Source: Hoeflea sp. YIM 152468 (GTDB taxonomy: Bacteria > Pseudomonadota > Alphaproteobacteria > Rhizobiales > Rhizobiaceae). Taken from it: a DNA stretch of 64,000 nt. Where the stretch lies: positions 1 through 64,000 of the forward strand of contig NZ_JARGET010000031.1 of NCBI RefSeq assembly GCF_029210485.1. Direction: 5' to 3'. The notes beneath the pieces are model-generated. The model did not search any database. It saw only the letters and a program-made list of their open reading frames with translations, and had not been told where the DNA came from. Both the position numbers and the translations under genes were made by a program. Shown one piece after another: positions 48,344 to 58,219 of this stretch. Positions within the stretch are counted from its first letter, which is position 1, and each line of letters begins with the position of its first letter.

Positions 48344-49780
48344 CTACTCCGCCGCTTGCCGGACCTGCGAGGCTTCAAGCCAATGGGCGAAATCGGCAAG
48401 AGCCCGGCGGGCCATGGCCTGCTTCTTGGCTTTGGCCTTGTCCTTGCCGCGGAAGCGGCCGCCACCCTCGGGACGCACGATCGCGCCCGGCTCGAGCGGC
48501 GGAAACAGGCCGAAGTTGACATTCATGGGTTGGAACGAGCGCTTGCCGGGTTCATCATCATTGAGCAGATGGCCGCCGGTGATGTGGTTGAGCAGTGCCC
48601 CGAAGGCCGAGGTCAGCGGCGGCGGCGGCAGGGCTTCGCCCAGTCGCTCGGCGGCGGCGAACCGGCCGGCCAGCAACCCCATGGCGGCGCTTTCGACATA
48701 GCCTTCGCAGCCGGTGATCTGGCCGGCAAAGCGCAAGCCCGGACGGCTCTTGAGCTGCAGGGTGCCATCCAGAAAGCGCGGGGAATTGAGATAGGTGTTG
48801 CGGTGCAGACCGCCAAGCCGGGCAAATTCGGCATTCTGGAGCCCCGGAATCATGCGGATGATCTCAGCCTGGGCGCCGTATTTCAGTTTGGTCTGAAATC
48901 CGACCATGTTGTAGAGCGTGCCCAGTGCGTTGTCCTGGCGCAGTTGGACGACGGCGTAGGCCTTGATGTCGGGCTGATGCGCGTTGGTCAGGCCCATGGG
49001 CTTCAGTGGACCATAGCGCAAGGTTTCGCGGCCGCGTTCGGCCATGATCTCGATCGGCAGGCAGCCATCAAAATAGGGCGTGCCTTCCCATTCCTTGAAA
49101 CCGGTGGTGTCGCCGGCGATCAGAGCATCGATGAAGGCGTCGTATTGCGGCTTGTCCATCGGGCAATTGATGTAGTCGCGGCCGGTGCCGCCCGGACCGA
49201 CCTTGTCGTAACGGGACTGGAACCAGCAGATCGACATGTCGATCGACTCGGTGTGGATGATGGGTGCAATGGCATCGAAAAATGCCAGCGCATCCTGGCC
49301 GGTTTCAGCCGCGATTGCCTCGGCCAGACCGGGTGCGGTCAGCGGACCGGTGGCAATGATGGTCTGGTCCCATTGCGCCGGGGGAAGGCCGGTGACCTCC
49401 TCACGGGCGACAGAAATCAGCGGTTCGGCTTCAATCGCATCGGTGACGGCCTGGGCAAAACCCTCACGATCAACCGCCAGCGCACCGCCGGCCGGAATTT
49501 GGGTCCTGTCGGCGCAGTCCATGATCAGGGAGTTTGCCAATCGCATTTCCGCGTGAATGACGCCGACCGCGTTGTTTTCGGCATCATCGGACCGAAACGA
49601 GTTCGAGCAGACGAGCTCAGCCAGACTGTCGGTCTGGTGGGCCTCCGTGCCGCGCACAGGCCGCATTTCATGCAGAATTACCGGCAGGCCGCGCCGGGAG
49701 ATCTGCCAGGCCGCCTCCGAGCCGGCAAGCCCGCCGCCGATGACGTGAATGGGAGCATGGGGAGAATGTGTCTTGGTCAT
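48344..49780 (-). CDS. trmFO: methylenetetrahydrofolate-tRNA-(uracil-5-)-methyltransferase TrmFO
   Basis: Folate- and FAD-dependent enzyme that makes m5U54 in tRNA. N-terminal [13 protein letters not shown] is the FAD site; [10 protein letters not shown] holds the conserved Cys region; C-terminal [12 protein letters not shown] and [11 protein letters not shown] are typical. 478 residues, normal. The ATG at 49780 fits the family start. It converges with the hydroxylase gene. Confidence 0.95.
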
Positions 49781-49839
49781 GCGTTGGCTTACCACGGGCG
49801 GGTTGCGGTCTCAAAGATGTTTGTATCCGCCCTGCAAAC

Positions 49840-49890: not shown

Positions 49891-50037
49891 TCAGCGGGCC
49901 ATGCGTCCGCGAGCTGCATTGTGGATATCGAAACGGGTCAGGCCGATGTCGGCCAGGGTTTCGTTGGAGAGATTGGCAAGCTGCTGAGCGGTCTGGCGGC
50001 TTTTCATCCAGCTGCGTGCTCTGGTGAGAATATTCAT
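49891..50037 (-). CDS. DUF1127 small protein (copy 1)
   Basis: A 48-residue basic protein. The DUF1127 core is seen as S-N-E-T-L-A-D-I-G-L-T-R-F-D-I, preceded by R-S-W-M-K-S-R-Q-T-A-Q-Q-L. GGAGGAAA precedes the ATG. Short DUF1127 proteins act in RNA-related and phosphate or stress responses in alphaproteobacteria, and CcaF1 of Rhodobacter is an RNA-binding one. Its promoter has the same layout as copies 2 and 3. Confidence 0.88.
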   Translation of the reverse strand: MNILTRARSWMKSRQTAQQLANLSNETLADIGLTRFDIHNAARGRMAR

Positions 50038-50099: not shown

Positions 50100-50134
50100 A
50101 ATATAGGCGATTGCTGCCTGATTGTGCAGCGCAA
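50100..50134 (-). promoter_or_regulatory. shared-type promoter of DUF1127 copy 1
   Basis: On the minus strand TGCACA (50128-50123), 17 bases, TATATT (50105-50100), with GCGC directly upstream of the -35. The -10 is preceded by CC. The same arrangement precedes copies 2 and 3. Confidence 0.7.
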
Positions 50135-50348: not shown

Positions 50349-50495
50349 TTAATTGCTGGGGCGGCGGGAAACAAACGGAATATCGCCGCGGGAAATGCCC
50401 AGGTCGTTGAGTTCGCGTTCTGACATGCGGGACAGCTCATTGACGGTGTTGCGATAGTCGCGCCAGTCTCTGTAAGCCTTGCGGAAGTTCATCAT
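50349..50495 (-). CDS. DUF1127 small protein (copy 2)
   Basis: A 48-residue basic protein too short for usual ORF cut-offs. It begins M-M-N-F-R-K-A-Y-R-D-W-R-D-Y-R and has the DUF1127 core L-S-E/M-S-E-R-E-L-N-D-L-G-I-S-R-G-D-I-P. AAGGA is eight bases upstream of the first ATG; the second ATG at 50492 is possible. It is closer to copy 3 (54.3 kb) than to copy 1. Confidence 0.88.
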   Translation of the reverse strand: MMNFRKAYRDWRDYRNTVNELSRMSERELNDLGISRGDIPFVSRRPSN

Positions 50496-50556: not shown

Positions 50557-50590
50557 AATATAGGTCCGGCCGATCCAATTGTGCAGTGCG
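50557..50590 (-). promoter_or_regulatory. shared-type promoter of DUF1127 copy 2
   Basis: On the minus strand TGCACA (50585-50580), 17 bases, TATATT (50562-50557), with GCAC just upstream. Between the TGCACAA block and CCTATATT lie 14 bases, as in the other two copies. Confidence 0.7.
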
Positions 50591-50867
50591 GAAGAACGCA
50601 ATGGAGCCATGCATCCGATGCATTGCGGGTTAACGGCATGCCGCTTGTCGGTCACGCCCGCCAAACCCAACTGACGAGTGAAGGACCGGGTCAGGCCGCA
50701 GGGCACTGTCGGGCGGTCTGGCGACGGGTAGACGTTCACCCGCCTTGCCCGCACAATCGGTCACCGTTCAGGCGGCAGCAGAGGTCTTGCCATGGCCTTT
50801 TCTGGCGGCGCCGGGAGAGGTGGAACCTGAAGATGCTTGAGGATTAAAACATTTGCAATTCAGGTAA

Positions 50868-50879
50868 TGTATGCATACA
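50868..50879. promoter_or_regulatory. palindromic operator candidate before the TRAP operon
   Basis: TGTATGCATACA is a perfect 12-bp palindrome in an A+T-rich stretch about 85 bases before dctP. It resembles sites of GntR/FadR-type regulators, which often control TRAP operons. No regulator gene lies nearby. Confidence 0.5.
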
Positions 50880-50963
50880 CATATTAAATATGGCCATGTT
50901 TCCTCGGGATACCGGGCCATTTCGGTTTGTTTACATTCGAGCGCATATTTCTGGGAGGAAGTC

Positions 50964-51920
50964 ATGTATTTACGTTCAATGGCAGCGGCTGCTGCAATTC
51001 TCGTCGCGTTTCCGGTCGCTGCCGAAGAGGTGGTGCTGCGCGGCGTTTCCGCATTCGGGCTCCAAACCAATTTTTCCCGTGATTTCGTCGCTTTCACCGA
51101 GTGGGTGAACGAGAACGGCAAGGGTGAGATTCAGATCGATCTGCTGGGTGGTCCTGAAGCTGTGCCGACGTTTGAACTTGGAAATGCGGTCCAGACCGGG
51201 GTCGTGGATATCGCCAACAACACCAGTGCATTTTATGGCAATCTGGTTCCGGCCGGTGACGCCTTGCATTTGGCGCAGAACACCATTCAGGATCAGCGCG
51301 CCAATGGCTGTTACGAGGCCATTGACCGCATTCACCAGGAGCAAATGAACGTCAAGTTCCTCGCCCGGACGGGTGATTACACGCCGTATCATCTGTACCT
51401 GACCAAGCCGATCGACACCCCGGACCTTACAGGGCTGACCTTGCGGACAACACCGGTGTATCGCGCCATGTTCGAGAAGCTGGGCGCCACCCTGGTGCAG
51501 ACCGCTCCAGGAGAGGTCTACACGGCGCTGGAACGCGGCTCCATTGATGGCTACGGCTGGCCAAGCCAGGGCATTCTGGACCTGGGCTGGCATGAGAAGA
51601 CAGCCTATCGTGTCGATCCGGGTTTTTATCAGGTCGACGTCAACTTCCTGGTCAATCTTGACACCTGGGGGACCCTCACCGACGCGCAAAAGGCGGTGCT
51701 GGAGCAGGGTGCAGCCTGGATAGAGGCGCGAAACCAGCTCAACATCGAGCGCAATGTGTCCGAGTTCAAGGCCCAGGCCGATGCGGGTATCGAAACCATC
51801 ACCTTTGAGGGTGACGACGCAGCCAAATGGATCGATACCGCTCAAACCGAGGGCTGGGCGAAAGTGACCGAGATCGACGCTGCGCTTTCCGCTGAACTGC
51901 GTTCGTGCATGAGCAAGTAA
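50964..51920 (+). CDS. dctP: TRAP transporter substrate-binding protein DctP
   Basis: Periplasmic binding protein of a TRAP importer (318 residues), with a signal peptide ending F-P-V-A-A-E-E. The conserved G-L-T-L-R-T-T-P-V-Y contains the Arg that binds the carboxylate of the ligand, and A-L-E-R-G-S-I-D-G is the family motif. GGGAGGAA precedes the ATG. dctQ and dctM follow. The ligand, presumably an organic acid, is unknown. Confidence 0.9.
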   Translation: MYLRSMAAAAAILVAFPVAAEEVVLRGVSAFGLQTNFSRDFVAFTEWVNENGKGEIQIDLLGGPEAVPTFELGNAVQTGVVDIANNTSAFYGNLVPAGDALHLAQNTIQDQRANGCYEAIDRIHQEQMNVKFLARTGDYTPYHLYLTKPIDTPDLTGLTLRTTPVYRAMFEKLGATLVQTAPGEVYTALERGSIDGYGWPSQGILDLGWHEKTAYRVDPGFYQVDVNFLVNLDTWGTLTDAQKAVLEQGAAWIEARNQLNIERNVSEFKAQADAGIETITFEGDDAAKWIDTAQTEGWAKVTEIDAALSAELRSCMSK

Positions 51921-51926
51921 GCCGAA

Positions 51927-51951
51927 CGGGGGGCGGCGTTGCCGCTCCCCG
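51927..51951 (+). other. intercistronic hairpin after dctP
   Basis: An 11-bp stem (CGGGGGGCGGC with GCCGCTCCCCG, one G-U) closed by a three-base loop, seven bases after the dctP stop. No T run follows. In transport operons such hairpins typically stabilise the binding-protein message and lower downstream expression. Confidence 0.65.
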
Positions 51952-51968
51952 CCACGATAGGTGCGGTG

Positions 51969-52469
51969 ATGAAAAAACTTGATGCTTTTTTTGATGCGCT
52001 TCTGCTTTTCCTTGCGCGTCTTGCGGCGATCATTCTGGCTTCCATCGCTGTGGTTATCCCGGTGAACATGGCGCTCAAGAAACTGGGACTGCCGATGATC
52101 TATGGCGCGCTCGACGCCATCGAGTACGGACTTCTGGCCGCGACCTTTCTGGCCGCCCCGTGGGTCCTGTCGATCAATGGGCACGTTCAGGTAGACCTGG
52201 TCACCGAAGCGCTTTCCGCCCGCGCCCGGCGTGTCCTATCCATAGGGGCGTGGCTGGTGGCGGGAATCGTGTCCGCGGCTCTTGCCTGGTACGCGTTTGA
52301 GGCGCTGCAAGCCTCCTATCTCCGTGGCGCGACGATCCGAAAAGCCTTCGCAATCCCGGAATGGTGGACGCTGGTCATGCTGCCGGTTTGCCTGATCCTT
52401 TGCGCGATCGAGTTTGCGCGCAAAATTCTGCGTCCGTCACTGCCACCGGTTTCTAAAGCAGGGCTATAG
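51969..52469 (+). CDS. dctQ: TRAP transporter small permease DctQ
   Basis: Four-helix small membrane subunit (166 residues), with P-W-V-L-S-I-N-G-H-V-Q-V-D-L-V-T-E-A-L and L-P-V-C-L-I-L-C-A-I-E-F. Starts at the ATG at 51969 by its position before the first helix; a longer frame reaches 51939. Lies between dctP and dctM. Confidence 0.88.
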   Translation: MKKLDAFFDALLLFLARLAAIILASIAVVIPVNMALKKLGLPMIYGALDAIEYGLLAATFLAAPWVLSINGHVQVDLVTEALSARARRVLSIGAWLVAGIVSAALAWYAFEALQASYLRGATIRKAFAIPEWWTLVMLPVCLILCAIEFARKILRPSLPPVSKAGL

Positions 52470-52478
52470 GAAACAATC

Positions 52479-53795
52479 ATGGATTGGGTGCTTACTCTCA
52501 CACTTATGCTCGGTGGGCTGATGCTGCTTCTGCTGGCAGGCCTGCCGGTCGCATTTGCCTTCATCACAGTCACGATGGTGGGCGCGTTTGAAGTGTTGGG
52601 TGGCGAACGCGGTTTTGTGCAATTGGCCCGAAACGCAACCCAGACAGTGTCAAATTTCCAACTCGCGCCCATTCCCCTGTTCATTCTCATGGGGGAAATC
52701 CTTTTCCACTCCGGGGTCGCGCACCGCGCCATTGATGCGATCGAGCGGGTTGTCACCAGAGTTCCGGGCCGATTGTCGGTGGTGACCATTTTCGGGGGAA
52801 CGGTGTTTGCAGCGCTTTCGGGTTCCACAATAGCCAACACTGCCATGCTGGGGTCGACCCTGCTGCCCGGCATGCTCAGGAAGGGCTACCATCCATCGCT
52901 CGCCATGGGGCCGATCATGGCCTCCGGCGCGATCGCGATGCTTATTCCCCCCTCGGCCCTTGCGGTGCTGGTCGGAAGCCTGGCCGGCATATCGATTTCC
53001 GGGCTGTTGATTGCCGGGGTCTTGCCTGCATTGGCTCTGGCAGTGCTCTTCGTTGTTTATGTCGTCATTCGCTGCATCGTGAATCCGGGGCTTGCGCCGA
53101 CGGAAGATCTGCCGGACATCAGTCTGGCCGAGCGCTGGCGGCCGTTCTTCATCTATGTGCTGCCGCTGTCACTGATGTTTTTCGTTGTCATCGGATCGCT
53201 TCTCGCGGGAGTGGCCACGCCCACCGAATCGGCAGCCCTTGGCTGCATCGCGGCTGTGGTGCTGAGTTTGTGTTACCGCGCCTTAAGCTTCGAAAACATT
53301 CATCGCGCGCTCATGGAAACCGTCAAGCTTTCAGTGATGATCCTGTTCATCATTGCCGCCAGCCAGACATTTGCGCAGGTCTTGTCTTTCAGCGGTGCAA
53401 CCGGCGGCTTCATCAAGATGGTGAATCTGATCGAACCGACGCCGACGATGGTCTTGATTGGTATGGTCCTCATCCTGTTGTTTTTGGGATGTTTCATTGA
53501 TCAGGTCTCGATGCTGATGATTACCGTCCCGATCTTCGTTCCTCTCGCAGCAAATGCGCAGATCAATGAGTTGGTGCTTGGCGTCACCTATCTTCTCACC
53601 ATGGAGATTGGTTTGCTGACGCCACCGTTCGGGCTGCTGCTTTTTGTCATGCGCGGGGTTGCGCCCGACACCATCAGCATGCGCAATATCTATGCCGCGG
53701 TAACCCCGTTTGTGTTCATCAAGCTGGCGGTATTGGCGCTCATCGTATGGCAACCGGCCTTCAGCACCTGGCTGCCCGATCAAATTTTCGATTAG
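52479..53795 (+). CDS. dctM: TRAP transporter large permease DctM
   Basis: Main sodium-coupled membrane subunit (438 residues, about 12 helices). Typical segments are F-I-L-M-G-E-I-L-F-H-S-G, the S-G-S-T-I-A-N-T-A motif, and M-L-I-P-P-S-A-L-A-V-L-V-G. Ten bases separate it from dctQ. No catabolic gene follows. Confidence 0.9.
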   Translation: MDWVLTLTLMLGGLMLLLLAGLPVAFAFITVTMVGAFEVLGGERGFVQLARNATQTVSNFQLAPIPLFILMGEILFHSGVAHRAIDAIERVVTRVPGRLSVVTIFGGTVFAALSGSTIANTAMLGSTLLPGMLRKGYHPSLAMGPIMASGAIAMLIPPSALAVLVGSLAGISISGLLIAGVLPALALAVLFVVYVVIRCIVNPGLAPTEDLPDISLAERWRPFFIYVLPLSLMFFVVIGSLLAGVATPTESAALGCIAAVVLSLCYRALSFENIHRALMETVKLSVMILFIIAASQTFAQVLSFSGATGGFIKMVNLIEPTPTMVLIGMVLILLFLGCFIDQVSMLMITVPIFVPLAANAQINELVLGVTYLLTMEIGLLTPPFGLLLFVMRGVAPDTISMRNIYAAVTPFVFIKLAVLALIVWQPAFSTWLPDQIFD

Positions 53796-54127
53796 ACCGT
53801 GCCGCGAAGCGTAAGACGCAGTCTGCCGCAAGGAGTTTGTGGGCGGAGAAGGATTGTCGCAGGGCATGGTTTTGCGCGCCGGTGAAGACGATACCGTCAT
53901 CCGGCCCTGGTCGGCAGCACATTTGAGCCATCAGAATCCGAATCCGTCCTGGTCGGCGCACGATGCTCTGTGTCCGGCTTCTCAAAAGGGCTGGCTCTTC
54001 TGCCTTGGCCGTCCGACACGTGCAGATCGCGGTCAAAGGCCCGCAGGGGGGAATGCAAGTGGACCGGGTCAACATCTTGCACGGAGATGGATGGGGCGCG
54101 TTGCCAGTTGGTTGGCTCAAACAAATA
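53796..54127. other. stretch between dctM and the hairpin array without a supported gene
   Basis: About 330 bases. Frames of 80-120 codons on both strands have no family resemblance and no ribosome binding site. I see no clear terminator for dctM. Confidence 0.5.
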
Positions 54128-54240
54128 ACGCCCACCGGGGGAGGAGGATCCGGTGGGCGTCATTTTAAATGACTGACGCTCGGGAGGAGGGTGAACGTCA
54201 GTCGCATCGAAGTGGCCATTGGGAGGAGGAGGTGGCCACT
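54128..54240 (-). ncRNA. array of three anti-Shine-Dalgarno hairpins (CcsR/cuckoo-like small RNAs)
   Basis: Directly after DUF1127 copy 3 the minus strand has three perfect stem-loops. A (54240-54211) has an 8-bp stem AGTGGCCA, B (54203-54171) an 8-bp stem GACTGACG, C (54160-54128) an 11-bp stem ACGCCCACCGG. The stems differ in sequence while each loop contains CCTCCTCCC. C is followed by a T-rich stretch (TATTTGTTT), so it could also end the transcript. In Rhodobacter the CcsR small RNAs, four homologous hairpins with CCUCCUCCC loops, are co-transcribed with a DUF1127 gene; cuckoo RNAs are the wider family. Location, strand and loops fit that. Processing and targets are inferred. Confidence 0.75.
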
Positions 54241-54256
54241 CCGAATTCCTTAAACT

Positions 54257-54397
54257 CTAGGAGGCGCGCCGCGCGACGAATGGAATGTCGCTGCGTGTCA
54301 TGCCTATGTCGTTCAACTCGCGTTCGCTAAGCCTGTTAAGCTCGACGCAGGTCTCACGATATTTACGCCAGCTGGCGTAGGAGCGGATCAAATTCAT
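54257..54397 (-). CDS. DUF1127 small protein (copy 3)
   Basis: A 46-residue basic protein: M-N-L-I-R-S-Y-A-S-W-R-K-Y-R, then L-S-E-R-E-L-N-D-I-G-M-T-R-S-D-I-P-F-V-A-R-R. Its C-terminal half nearly matches copy 2. GGGAGAG precedes the ATG. It is followed by the three anti-SD hairpins after a 16-base gap, with no terminator between, so they are probably one transcript. Confidence 0.9.
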   Translation of the reverse strand: MNLIRSYASWRKYRETCVELNRLSERELNDIGMTRSDIPFVARRAS

Positions 54398-54457: not shown

Positions 54458-54491
54458 AACATAGGGGGCTTTGCTCGATTTGTGCAGTGCA
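54458..54491 (-). promoter_or_regulatory. shared-type promoter of DUF1127 copy 3 and the hairpin array
   Basis: On the minus strand TGCACA (54486-54481), 17 bases, TATGTT (54463-54458), with GCAC just upstream. Same layout as the other two. Transcription would start about 55 bases before the ATG. Confidence 0.7.
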
Positions 54492-54658
54492 ATATTCTCA
54501 TGGAAGCTATTCGGCAATTGCATAGCTCAAGCCAAACTGCCTGAACTGAGTGCATGCAAAGGCAAAGCCGATGATTTCTGTCTCCTCATTTGGCGCAGGG
54601 TATGGGATAGAGAATGGTTCGGACCTCGTTGATGCCATTTTTTCGAAAGAATCACCTC

Positions 54659-55771
54659 ATGTTCCGCAGATATTTGTGCCGCGAGATCGATCAATGGACC
54701 CAGGCCGGATTGTTGCAGCCAGGGCAGGGCGCCGAGTTGCTGGCGGATCACGACCGGCGGCACACCGGTTTCAAGCTCTCGAGTGTTCTCGCCATCCTCG
54801 CGGCTGTGCTGTTCGGGGCTGCGGTGATTGCCCTTGTTGCGGCCAATTGGGACGCGATAGCCCGCCCGCTCCGGGTCGGAATGATTTTCCTCTTCATCCT
54901 TTCGGGACTTTTCACCGCGGCTGTGGCCTTGCGCAGAGGCGCGGGATGGCTATCGGAGGCGGCTCTGGTGTTTGCGCTGCTGTGCCATGGTGCAGGCATC
55001 GCGCTCACGGGTCAGATGTACCATCTGAGCGGGGATGAAGCGGCGTTCATGTTGGTGTGGACGTCTGCTGCGCTGGTTGTATCGTTTTGCTTCCGTTCGC
55101 CAATGGCGGCGGTTGGAGCCGGACTCCTGGCATTCGGTTACCTGCTGGCGCAATCGGCAGCGTTCGGATCACGCGCGGCAGACGTGAGCGATGTAGCCGG
55201 GTATCTCACGGTTGTGGTCCTGGCCCTTGTTGTCGGTCTGGCGAGCTGGCGATCGCGCTCGACAGTGGCGGCTCACCTCTGCGCGTTGATCCTGATCGGC
55301 TGGGTCGTGTGGGTCGTGGATGACACAACGGATCTGGATCTTGGCTATGTGCTGGCTGCAATCGGCGCGGTAGCGTTTGGCATCGGCTCCCTGGGCGCTT
55401 CCCGGCTCGGGGGCGGGGTGGTGCGCCATGGAACCGTGTCAGCCTATGGGGCGGTTCTGTTTCTATCCGGGCTGATTGCGATTCAGGTAGAGCTTGCCGA
55501 TCCCGGACTGGTCAGCGAAATTGTGCTTGCTGCGTTGGTCATGCTGGCCAGTGTCGCCATTGTTGCCGTCGCCGGTGGCGACAACCGCTTCATCCGCCGG
55601 TTTGCCTATTTCACCTTCGCCGGCGAAACCATTTATGTGGTTGGGGAAACCTTGGGCTCGCTGCTGGGAAGCGCCGGTTTTCTGTTTCTGGGCGGGCTGG
55701 TGCTGGCCGTTATCGCCTTTGCGGTGATGAAGATTGAAAAAAGGTTCAAGGCCGGGGAGGGCCGGTCATGA
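54659..55771 (+). CDS. DUF2157 polytopic membrane protein
   Basis: A 370-residue protein with a short N-terminal cytoplasmic domain (R-E-I-D-Q-W-T-Q-A-G-L-L) and about ten membrane helices, recognised as DUF2157 from the N-terminal domain and the A-N-W-D-A-I-A-R-P-L-R-V loop. The function is not known. It overlaps the GDYXXLXY gene (ATGA), the usual partner. ATG at 54659 is chosen; ATGs at 54632 and earlier are alternatives. Confidence 0.85.
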   Translation: MFRRYLCREIDQWTQAGLLQPGQGAELLADHDRRHTGFKLSSVLAILAAVLFGAAVIALVAANWDAIARPLRVGMIFLFILSGLFTAAVALRRGAGWLSEAALVFALLCHGAGIALTGQMYHLSGDEAAFMLVWTSAALVVSFCFRSPMAAVGAGLLAFGYLLAQSAAFGSRAADVSDVAGYLTVVVLALVVGLASWRSRSTVAAHLCALILIGWVVWVVDDTTDLDLGYVLAAIGAVAFGIGSLGASRLGGGVVRHGTVSAYGAVLFLSGLIAIQVELADPGLVSEIVLAALVMLASVAIVAVAGGDNRFIRRFAYFTFAGETIYVVGETLGSLLGSAGFLFLGGLVLAVIAFAVMKIEKRFKAGEGRS

Positions 55772-56379
55772 CAGCCATCAGCCAGATGTTACGCCGAGAC
55801 ATCAACCCGTTCATCGCCGCAATGATCTGCGCGATTGTGCTGATCGGCATGCTCGGGGTGATGATTGGTGGCCGCGTCGCCATCCTGCGCAATGGCTTCG
55901 AGGTGGTGCTCAAGGCCGCGCCGGTTGATCCCAGGGATCTGATGCGGGGCGACTATGTCGAGCTGCGCTACGAAGACATCTCGATGGTCAATGGCGCGCT
56001 GCTGGCAGCGGATTGGCCAAAAGAGGACACCTATGCACAGCTCTGGCTGACGCTGGAGCGCAGCGGTGAAGATCGGCTGGGAAAACCTTCTGCACTCTCG
56101 CTGCGGCAACCAGACTATCGGCTTCCCGGTGCCGTCTATTTGAAAAGCAAGCCGGTGATGGTGTATGCGGATGACCGGGAGCGCGCCGGGGAGGTGATGT
56201 TCCCGCTCCGCTTCGGCATCGAGCGTTATTATGTGCCCGAAGGCGAAGGGCTGGAGATCGAGTCAGCCCGCAATGATGGCAGGACAACGGTTGCGGTGCG
56301 GATATCGCAGTCGGGCAAAGCACAAATCGCGCGTCTGATGATTGATGGGGAGACGCTCTATAGCGAGCCGCTGTACTGA
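55768..56379 (+). CDS. GDYXXLXY-domain protein
   Basis: A 203-residue protein with one N-terminal membrane helix (about 14-36) and a periplasmic domain. The name-giving motif is present: R-G-D-Y-V-E-L-R-Y. A second conserved block is F-G-I-E-R-Y-Y-V-P-E-G-E-G. The family is nearly always coupled to DUF2157, as here. Function unknown. Confidence 0.88.
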   Translation: MTAISQMLRRDINPFIAAMICAIVLIGMLGVMIGGRVAILRNGFEVVLKAAPVDPRDLMRGDYVELRYEDISMVNGALLAADWPKEDTYAQLWLTLERSGEDRLGKPSALSLRQPDYRLPGAVYLKSKPVMVYADDRERAGEVMFPLRFGIERYYVPEGEGLEIESARNDGRTTVAVRISQSGKAQIARLMIDGETLYSEPLY

Positions 56380-56528: not shown

Positions 56529-56612
<84 letters not shown>

Positions 56613-56707: not shown

Positions 56708-56794
56708 GAAGAATGCCGAAGCGACGCCGGAAAACCGGCCCAGTCGCGGGGCCAACCCGAACGGTCGCAGTCGCGAGGAAATGAAGGTTTGAAC

Positions 56795-58219
56795 ATGCAG
56801 GTTACCGAAACGCTTGCCGAAGGGCTGAAGCGCGAATTGAAGGTTGTCGTTCCCGCTGCGGACATGGCATCGCAGCTCAACGAGAAACTTGCCGAAGCCA
56901 AAAGCAAGATGCAGATCAAGGGCTTTCGCCCGGGCAAGGTGCCGATTTCGCATCTCAAGAAGGTCTATGGCAAATCGATGATGGCGCAGCTGGTCAATGA
57001 GATGATCCAGGAAAAGCCGACCTCGATCCTTTCCGAGCGTGGAGAAAAGGCTGCAACCCAGCCGGAGATTTCCATGACCGAGGACGAGAAGGAAGCTGAT
57101 CAGATCCTCAACGGAGCAGCCGATTTCGAATTCACCATCGCTTATGAGGTGATCCCAGCCTTTGACGTGGCGGACATGTCGAGCATCAAGGTCGTCCGTG
57201 AAGTCGTCGATGTGCCGGCGGAAGAAGTCGAGGAGCAGGTGCTTCGGGTGGCGGAAAACAGCCGCACCTACGAGCCCAAGACCGGCAAGGCTGCCGACGG
57301 CGACAAGGTGACGATCGATTACCTGGGCAAGCTTGACGGCGAACCGTTCGAAGGTGGCGCGGATCAGGACGCTGAACTTGTCATCGGCTCGAACCGCTTC
57401 ATCCCTGGCTTTGAAGAACAGCTCGTCGGCCTCAAGGAAGGCGACGAGAAGGTGATCAAGGTCACATTCCCGGAAGATTATCAGGCTGCCCATCTTGCCG
57501 GCAAGGAAGTGACTTTCGACATCACGGTCAAGGCCATTGCCGCGCCCGGTGAGCTTGAAATCAATGACGAACTGGCCAAGACACTGGGGCTTGATTCCGC
57601 CGACAAGCTGCGCGAAGTCGTCCAGTCGCAGATCGAAAGCCAGTATGGCCAGATCACCCGCCAGAAGCTCAAGCGGCAGATTCTCGATCAGCTGGATGAG
57701 GCGCACAAGTTCGAATCGCCTTCCAAACTGGTCGATGCGGAATTTGAAAGCATCTGGCGCCAGATCAACCAGGAACTGACCGACAACAACAAGACCTTCG
57801 AAGACGAAGACACAACCGAAGAGGCTGCGCGCGAAGAGTACCGCACGCTGGCCGAGCGCCGTGTCCGTCTCGGTCTCGTCCTGTCGAAGATCGGTGAAGA
57901 AGCCGGTATTCAGGTCAGCGACGAAGAACTGCAGCGTTCGCTGTTCGAGCAGGTTCGCAAGTTTCCGGGTCAGGAAAAGGAAATCTACGAGTATTTCCAG
58001 AAGACCCCAGGCGCCGTGGCCTCGTTGCGGGCTCCGATCTTTGAGGAAAAGACCGTTGACCACATGCTCACCATCATTGATGTGACGGACAAGCCGGTGA
58101 GCAAGGAAGAGCTGATGGCGGATGACGAGGCCGAGGCTTCCGACAAGCCCGAGCCGAAGAAGAAGAAGGCGCCAGTCAAGAAGAAAGCTGCAAAGAAGGA
58201 CGATGCGGCTGCCGAATAA
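56795..58219 (+). CDS. tig: trigger factor
   Basis: Ribosome-bound chaperone with prolyl isomerase activity. The ribosome-binding signature near residue 44 reads G-F-R-P-G-K-V-P, the FKBP domain begins near residue 160 ([10 protein letters not shown]), and the C-terminal substrate arms follow. The Lys/Ala-rich tail (last 25 residues) is common in alphaproteobacteria. The family start M-Q-V-T-E-T-L points to ATG at 56795; a TTG two codons earlier is not needed. Confidence 0.96.

Follow-up and report, generated by a model that had tools for sequence, protein, structure and literature searches.

An αr14/NfeR1-type small RNA encoded directly behind a DUF1127 gene in Hoeflea sp. YIM 152468

Three perfect stems of differing sequence, each presenting the same loop, follow a short DUF1127 gene in Hoeflea sp. 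YIM 152468 and raise the question of whether they represent a novel RNA, a Rhodobacter-like CcsR cluster, or a member of a known family. We analyzed a window of 64,000 nucleotides (contig NZ_JARGET010000031.1, positions 1 to 64,000), to which all window coordinates below refer. An earlier sequence-only reading had reported stems of 8, 8, and 11 bp around one loop motif on the DUF1127 strand. Our stem search recovered best perfect Watson–Crick stems of the same lengths around CCTCCTCCC, which occurs three times in the whole window, always on the minus strand (54221-54229, 54182-54190, and 54139-54147). The 141-nt RNA 54116-54256 has a predicted fold of -65.9 kcal/mol that leaves all three motifs single-stranded, against a mean of -35.3 for 200 dinucleotide shuffles (z = -7.4; 0/200 as good). 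Stems of at least 8 bp arose at only 20 of 20,000 random window positions, which places three consecutive stems beyond chance. Genome-wide, exact CCTCCTCCC has 26 copies versus 24 for the reversed control; hence, the motif by itself is not rare, and the surrounding hairpins are the unusual part.

An Rfam covariance scan, which the same reading had proposed, settled the identity of the hairpins. RF02344 (ar14) matched at 54123-54249 on the minus strand with 107.3 bits (cut-off 58.8; cmscan), covering the model at full length (positions 1-123 of 123) and spanning all three hairpins, while CcsR1 stayed under its gathering score, as did ar7 and 6C in a more sensitive scan of the locus. According to PMC10746234, αr14 members carry three hairpins with an identical, unpaired CCUCCUCCC in each and stems that vary, and this is the structure found at 54123-54249. 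Differing stems with constant loops are thus a published trait of the family and do not set this locus apart. The three-unit form, suspected of being undescribed, likewise corresponds to the αr14 structure described in PMC10746234 and PMC3927594, the latter reporting three such hairpins in SmelA075 and four in SmelA099; with RF02344 fitting, a new class of three-unit RNA is ruled out. The hairpins are almost certainly the Hoeflea copy of the trans-acting small RNA αr14/NfeR1. The original call of a small RNA gene with anti-Shine-Dalgarno loops beside a DUF1127 gene in a rhizobial relative was therefore right, although its span of 54128-54259 overlaps the DUF1127 stop codon, and its interpretation as a whole is partly supported. 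A search of an open-access library returned no paper on αr14 in Hoeflea, which does not prove that none exists. The features of the locus are as follows:

48344-49795, minus strand: trmFO, conserved neighbour (NF003739, 669 bits)
49891-50037, minus strand: DUF1127-C, 48 aa, with its own predicted promoter (PF06568, 45 bits; TTGCACTGCACAAATCG-like element at 50118-50134, 4 mismatches)
50349-50495, minus strand: DUF1127-B, 48 aa, with its own predicted promoter (PF06568, 64 bits; TGCA-N6-GCAT box; TTGCACTGCACAAATCG-like element at 50575-50591, 4 mismatches)
50642-54114, no strand assigned: insertion with a TRAP operon (dctP, dctQ, and dctM, plus strand; Pfam), missing in relatives, borders approximate
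54123-54249, minus strand: αr14 (NfeR1-type) small RNA (full-length RF02344 match, 107.3 bits)
54128-54160, minus strand: hairpin 3, core of 11 perfectly paired bp, loop motif CCTCCTCCC at 54139-54147, U-rich sequence behind it (stem search and fold)
54171-54203, minus strand: hairpin 2, core of 8 perfectly paired bp, loop motif CCTCCTCCC at 54182-54190 (stem search and fold)
54211-54240, minus strand: hairpin 1, core of 8 perfectly paired bp, loop motif CCTCCTCCC at 54221-54229 (stem search and fold)
54257-54397, minus strand: DUF1127-A, 46 aa (PF06568, 55.6 bits), its stop codon 7 nt ahead of the αr14 match
54459-54522, minus strand: predicted promoter region of DUF1127-A/αr14 (TGCA-N6-G-A-A box 54510-54522; TTGCACTGCACAAATCG 54476-54492; CTATGT, -10-like, 54459-54464)
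56529-56612, plus strand: tRNA-Leu(TAG), conserved neighbour
56789-58219, plus strand: tig (trigger factor), conserved neighbour (TIGR00115, 406 bits)

The surroundings point to the same family. The window runs from tig through tRNA-Leu(TAG), the GDYXXLXY and DUF2157 genes, DUF1127-A, αr14, the TRAP operon, DUF1127-B, and DUF1127-C to trmFO; an S. meliloti record labelled plasmid pSymB (L134, 3.7 Mb), reads tig, tRNA-Leu(TAG), αr14, αr14, DUF1127, DUF1127, trmFO. Both αr14 loci thus have tig, tRNA-Leu(TAG), two DUF1127 genes, and trmFO in common, along with similar promoter elements, three hairpins with unpaired CCUCCUCCC, and a full-length model match (S. meliloti αr14/NfeR1 is also known as SmelC397 or smrC14). 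They differ in that Hoeflea has a DUF1127 gene between promoter and small RNA and carries the TRAP insertion, whereas the S. meliloti locus contains αr14 twice, neither copy being preceded by a DUF1127 gene. The DUF2157 and GDYXXLXY membrane protein genes (54614-56379, between DUF1127-A and tRNA-Leu/tig) are also foreign to the S. meliloti arrangement. Among 17 other Hoeflea genomes, 16 hold DUF1127-A, αr14, DUF1127-B, and DUF1127-C together within ~1.6 kb; in the seventeenth (G109, 77% complete), only the paralogue was seen. A TRAP operon splits the locus in none of these 16. In alignments, the relatives cover about 49.5-50.6 kb and 54.1-54.5 kb of the window and lack the intervening 3.5 kb, which identifies the TRAP operon as an insertion in the Hoeflea sp. 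YIM 152468 lineage, placed between αr14 and the DUF1127-B promoter. The operon, pointed out as a neighbour in the earlier reading, is therefore no conserved partner, and a conserved TRAP–αr14 tie is ruled out. By eye, a gene resembling IS5-type transposases lies between two αr14 copies in Shinella sp. PSBB067 (L135, 4200-5000), suggesting that the αr14 locus took up DNA in another lineage too.

At E <= 0.001, RF02344 was recovered in all 18 Hoeflea genomes (17 over the cut-off), in 97 of 101 genomes of the family sample (91 over the cut-off), and in 46 of 150 genomes of the order sample (22 over the cut-off); none of 14 control genomes had a match. The plasmid collection gave two records. In the proposed check of stem covariation in relatives, each loop's own arms were compared with arms swapped between loci (66, 68, and 55 hairpins 1, 2, and 3, respectively, from 69 family loci). 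Own arms folded better throughout, with means of -16.5 versus -8.1 kcal/mol for hairpin 1, -15.6 versus -8.1 for hairpin 2, and -27.0 versus -16.7 for hairpin 3, and they left the motif free in 185/189 cases versus 1055/1890 for swapped arms. Perfect stems of at least 7 bp were present in 19/66, 34/68, and 52/55 own hairpins 1-3 versus 23/1320, 51/1360, and 297/1100 swapped ones; these counts indicate that many stems of hairpins 1 and 2 are interrupted. Within the genus, the stems hardly vary, so the same comparison is low in power (-16.8 versus -15.7, -16.6 versus -13.3, and -27.4 versus -26.3 kcal/mol; perfect stems in 3/18, 7/18, and 17/18 own versus 26/306, 50/306, and 229/306 swapped hairpins). 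The proposal of selection on structure thus holds at the level of the wider αr14 family, where the arm exchange supports stem covariation, and the genus adds little to it.

The second element of the locus is the DUF1127 gene. A short DUF1127 gene together with an anti-Shine-Dalgarno hairpin RNA is what PMC10253847 words as a CIN1 locus, and this combination lies at 54123-54397. In our family survey of 69 loci, a DUF1127 stop codon occurs within 100 nt upstream of αr14 in 35, in 30 of which it lies within 15 nt; six loci have DUF1127 upstream at more than 100 nt, 13 solely downstream, and 15 have none within reach. The layout with DUF1127 directly before αr14 is common in the family, and with both it and the three-hairpin form in print, neither is undescribed. 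The survey took one locus per genome (the best match, further copies being unclassed), 29 from the family search and 40 fetched, leaving out about 20 of the 91 genomes over the cut-off. More distant DUF1127 genes escape detection with its flanks of 1.5 kb (29 loci) and 1.2 kb (40 loci); one flank was shortened by a contig end (L168), the strand was assumed for a locus lacking an exact motif (L171), and the DUF1127 profile was built on the three window proteins only.

The locus is thus real, conserved, and largely explained, with an αr14 small RNA in the NfeR1 place and a DUF1127 gene in front. While the RNA family and its mechanism class are already known, the promoter logic and co-transcription proposed here for the Hoeflea copy are predictions. 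The best explanation of the whole, to which we assign a probability of about 0.7, is a DUF1127–αr14 transcript that is activated by a LysR-type regulator and whose loops block Shine-Dalgarno sites. A regulator of the LsrB/VtlR type would activate the promoter upstream of DUF1127-A, and a single transcript would carry DUF1127-A and αr14 and end at hairpin 3, which probably doubles as a terminator, judging by the U-rich stretch after its stem. Cleavage in the short unpaired stretch past the stop codon may then free αr14, by analogy with CcaF1–CcsR; as S. meliloti NfeR1 is transcribed alone, function does not require release from an mRNA. Each loop would pair with GGGAGGA-type Shine-Dalgarno sequences, thereby blocking translation, and the targets would largely be mRNAs of solute-binding proteins and transporters.

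Evidence for the first steps comes from the upstream region. TTGCACTGCACAAATCG is exact upstream of DUF1127-A in 18/18 aligned Hoeflea loci (17 genomes), with a CTAT-type -10 after it and a TGC(A/G)-N6-like box ahead of it, and, allowing up to 2 mismatches, it is single-copy in the genome of Hoeflea sp. YIM 152468. Many of the 69 family loci lack it even when up to 3 mismatches are allowed. The DUF1127-B and DUF1127-C copies have 4 mismatches, each followed by CCTATAT, and TGCA-N6-GCAT stands exact before DUF1127-B; three similar LsrB/VtlR-like promoters thus precede the three DUF1127 genes, one each. In published work, LsrB activates NfeR1 through a TGCA-N6-GCAT box located at -72 to -60 of nfeR1, and in Agrobacterium and Brucella small-protein genes and sRNAs are under VtlR, which activates them through GCAT-N3-TG-N3-T (PMC7486931). 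At 54510-54522, the form is instead TGCA-N6-GAA and precedes DUF1127-A, not directly αr14, and the GCAT-N3-TG-N3-T form shows mismatches at this promoter. In S. meliloti, the TTGCACTGCACAAATCG 17-mer lies ahead of the first αr14 copy without an intervening DUF1127 gene, and TGCATCACTTGCAT starts 71 nt ahead of the second copy (L134, 4278-4400); as this distance fits the published LsrB box, we infer that the second copy is NfeR1. A similar promoter element thus precedes a lone αr14 in S. meliloti and a DUF1127–αr14 pair in Hoeflea. The Hoeflea arrangement agrees with VtlR/LsrB control, and LsrB-type activation of the DUF1127-A/αr14 promoter appears somewhat favored on these sequence grounds.

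Co-transcription of αr14 with DUF1127-A is the probable arrangement, since αr14 follows the DUF1127-A coding region after only 7 nt, which leaves little room for a separate promoter. Transcription of αr14 alone, from a promoter of its own within the DUF1127-A reading frame, would match NfeR1, which has its own promoter in published accounts (PMC10746234 among them), and would suit the 34 of 69 family loci that lack a DUF1127 stop in the 100 nt upstream. This is nevertheless unlikely here, as the conserved element sits upstream of DUF1127-A in all 18 aligned genus loci and does not recur in the DUF1127-A region even with up to 5 mismatches (49-55 kb scan). The comparison with Rhodobacter sphaeroides, where an RpoHI/RpoHII promoter drives a DUF1127 mRNA from which separate CcsR RNAs are released, was apt as far as it concerned a DUF1127 gene followed directly by an anti-Shine-Dalgarno hairpin RNA with the identical loop motif, as in the CcaF1–CcsR1-4 operon (RF02791; a CIN1 locus in PMC10253847). 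NfeR1 is closer, however: RF02791 matches weakly across hairpins 2 and 3 (30.1 bits against a cut-off of 65.3), which rules out CcsR membership, while RF02344 spans all three. The R. sphaeroides operon also has four RNAs, the Hoeflea gene order is shared with the S. meliloti αr14 locus, and the conserved element upstream looks like the LsrB-type promoter of NfeR1, making a CcsR-type cluster improbable. That the hairpins merely end or protect the DUF1127-A mRNA as its 3' untranslated region, with no targets in trans, is barely credible: the αr14 match lies only 7 nt past the stop codon, and 35 of 69 family loci share a nearby upstream DUF1127, but S. meliloti αr14 copies stand without a DUF1127 gene ahead, and NfeR1 acts in trans according to published work.

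Beyond the DUF1127–αr14 transcript itself, we tentatively suggest, as a possibility with the odds against it, that an NfeR1-type promoter in Hoeflea lets one LsrB/VtlR signal yield a small protein together with the sRNA that this protein may help mature, with two more DUF1127 genes under diverged promoter copies, forming a bridge between the CcaF1–CcsR operon and stand-alone NfeR1. The promoter link makes it possible to ask whether a DUF1127 protein acts on its companion sRNA; PMC12501420 terms the RNA binding of CcaF1 versus the PhoR binding of Agrobacterium DUF1127 proteins an open puzzle.

Repression by αr14 loops through anti-Shine-Dalgarno pairing is highly probable. S. meliloti NfeR1, reported in six copies, silences mostly transport mRNAs via three redundant motifs (PMC7143759). 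In the Hoeflea genome, GGGAGGA occurs 5-11 nt before ATG at 62 sites versus 6 for the reversed pattern, and the control AAGGAGG at 51 sites versus 11 reversed. Thirty loci were fetched for each: 20 GGGAGGA loci had an ORF of at least 100 aa, 12 encoding transport proteins (nine of them solute-binding), compared with 15 control loci, four encoding transport proteins (three solute-binding). The transport excess is borderline (12/20 versus 4/15, one-sided Fisher p 0.05), and that of solute-binding proteins gives p 0.12 (9/20 versus 3/15, one-sided Fisher); at least one of the 20 ORFs (L195) seems to start inside a gene, given its partial domain match. The enrichment of transport genes among these candidate sites is no more than suggestive. 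Within the insertion, dctP carries GGGAGGA 4 nt before its ATG at 50964 and could be an αr14 target, though with 62 GGGAGGA-N5-11-ATG sites in the genome this proves nothing.

AbcR1/AbcR2 resemble αr14 in anti-Shine-Dalgarno pairing with transporter mRNAs and in the activation of AbcR1 by LsrB/VtlR (PMC7486931 among the sources), but they are described with two distinct anti-Shine-Dalgarno motifs instead of three equal loops, and neither standard nor sensitive Rfam scans gave an AbcR-kind match at 54123-54249. Elsewhere in the same genome, two weak ar14 matches on C36 are probably chance or very distant: L003 (1501-1607, 31.7 bits) has two motifs, with a tRNA nearby, and L004 (1501-1606, 31.2 bits) has no exact motif. 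A further element (L002, 1501-1646; C23:142614-142759, minus strand) consists of two CCTCCTCCC hairpins and a terminator-like hairpin, with no DUF1127 gene within its locus, and may be a two-unit cuckoo RNA not yet catalogued. Of 18 Hoeflea genomes, 16 have sub-threshold ar14 matches of this length (33.6-45.6 bits); the 11 that were aligned all carry two motifs and a conserved stretch upstream, and in both L002 and L059 the element has, by ORF reading, sugar ABC transporter genes on one side and a LysR-type gene on the other.
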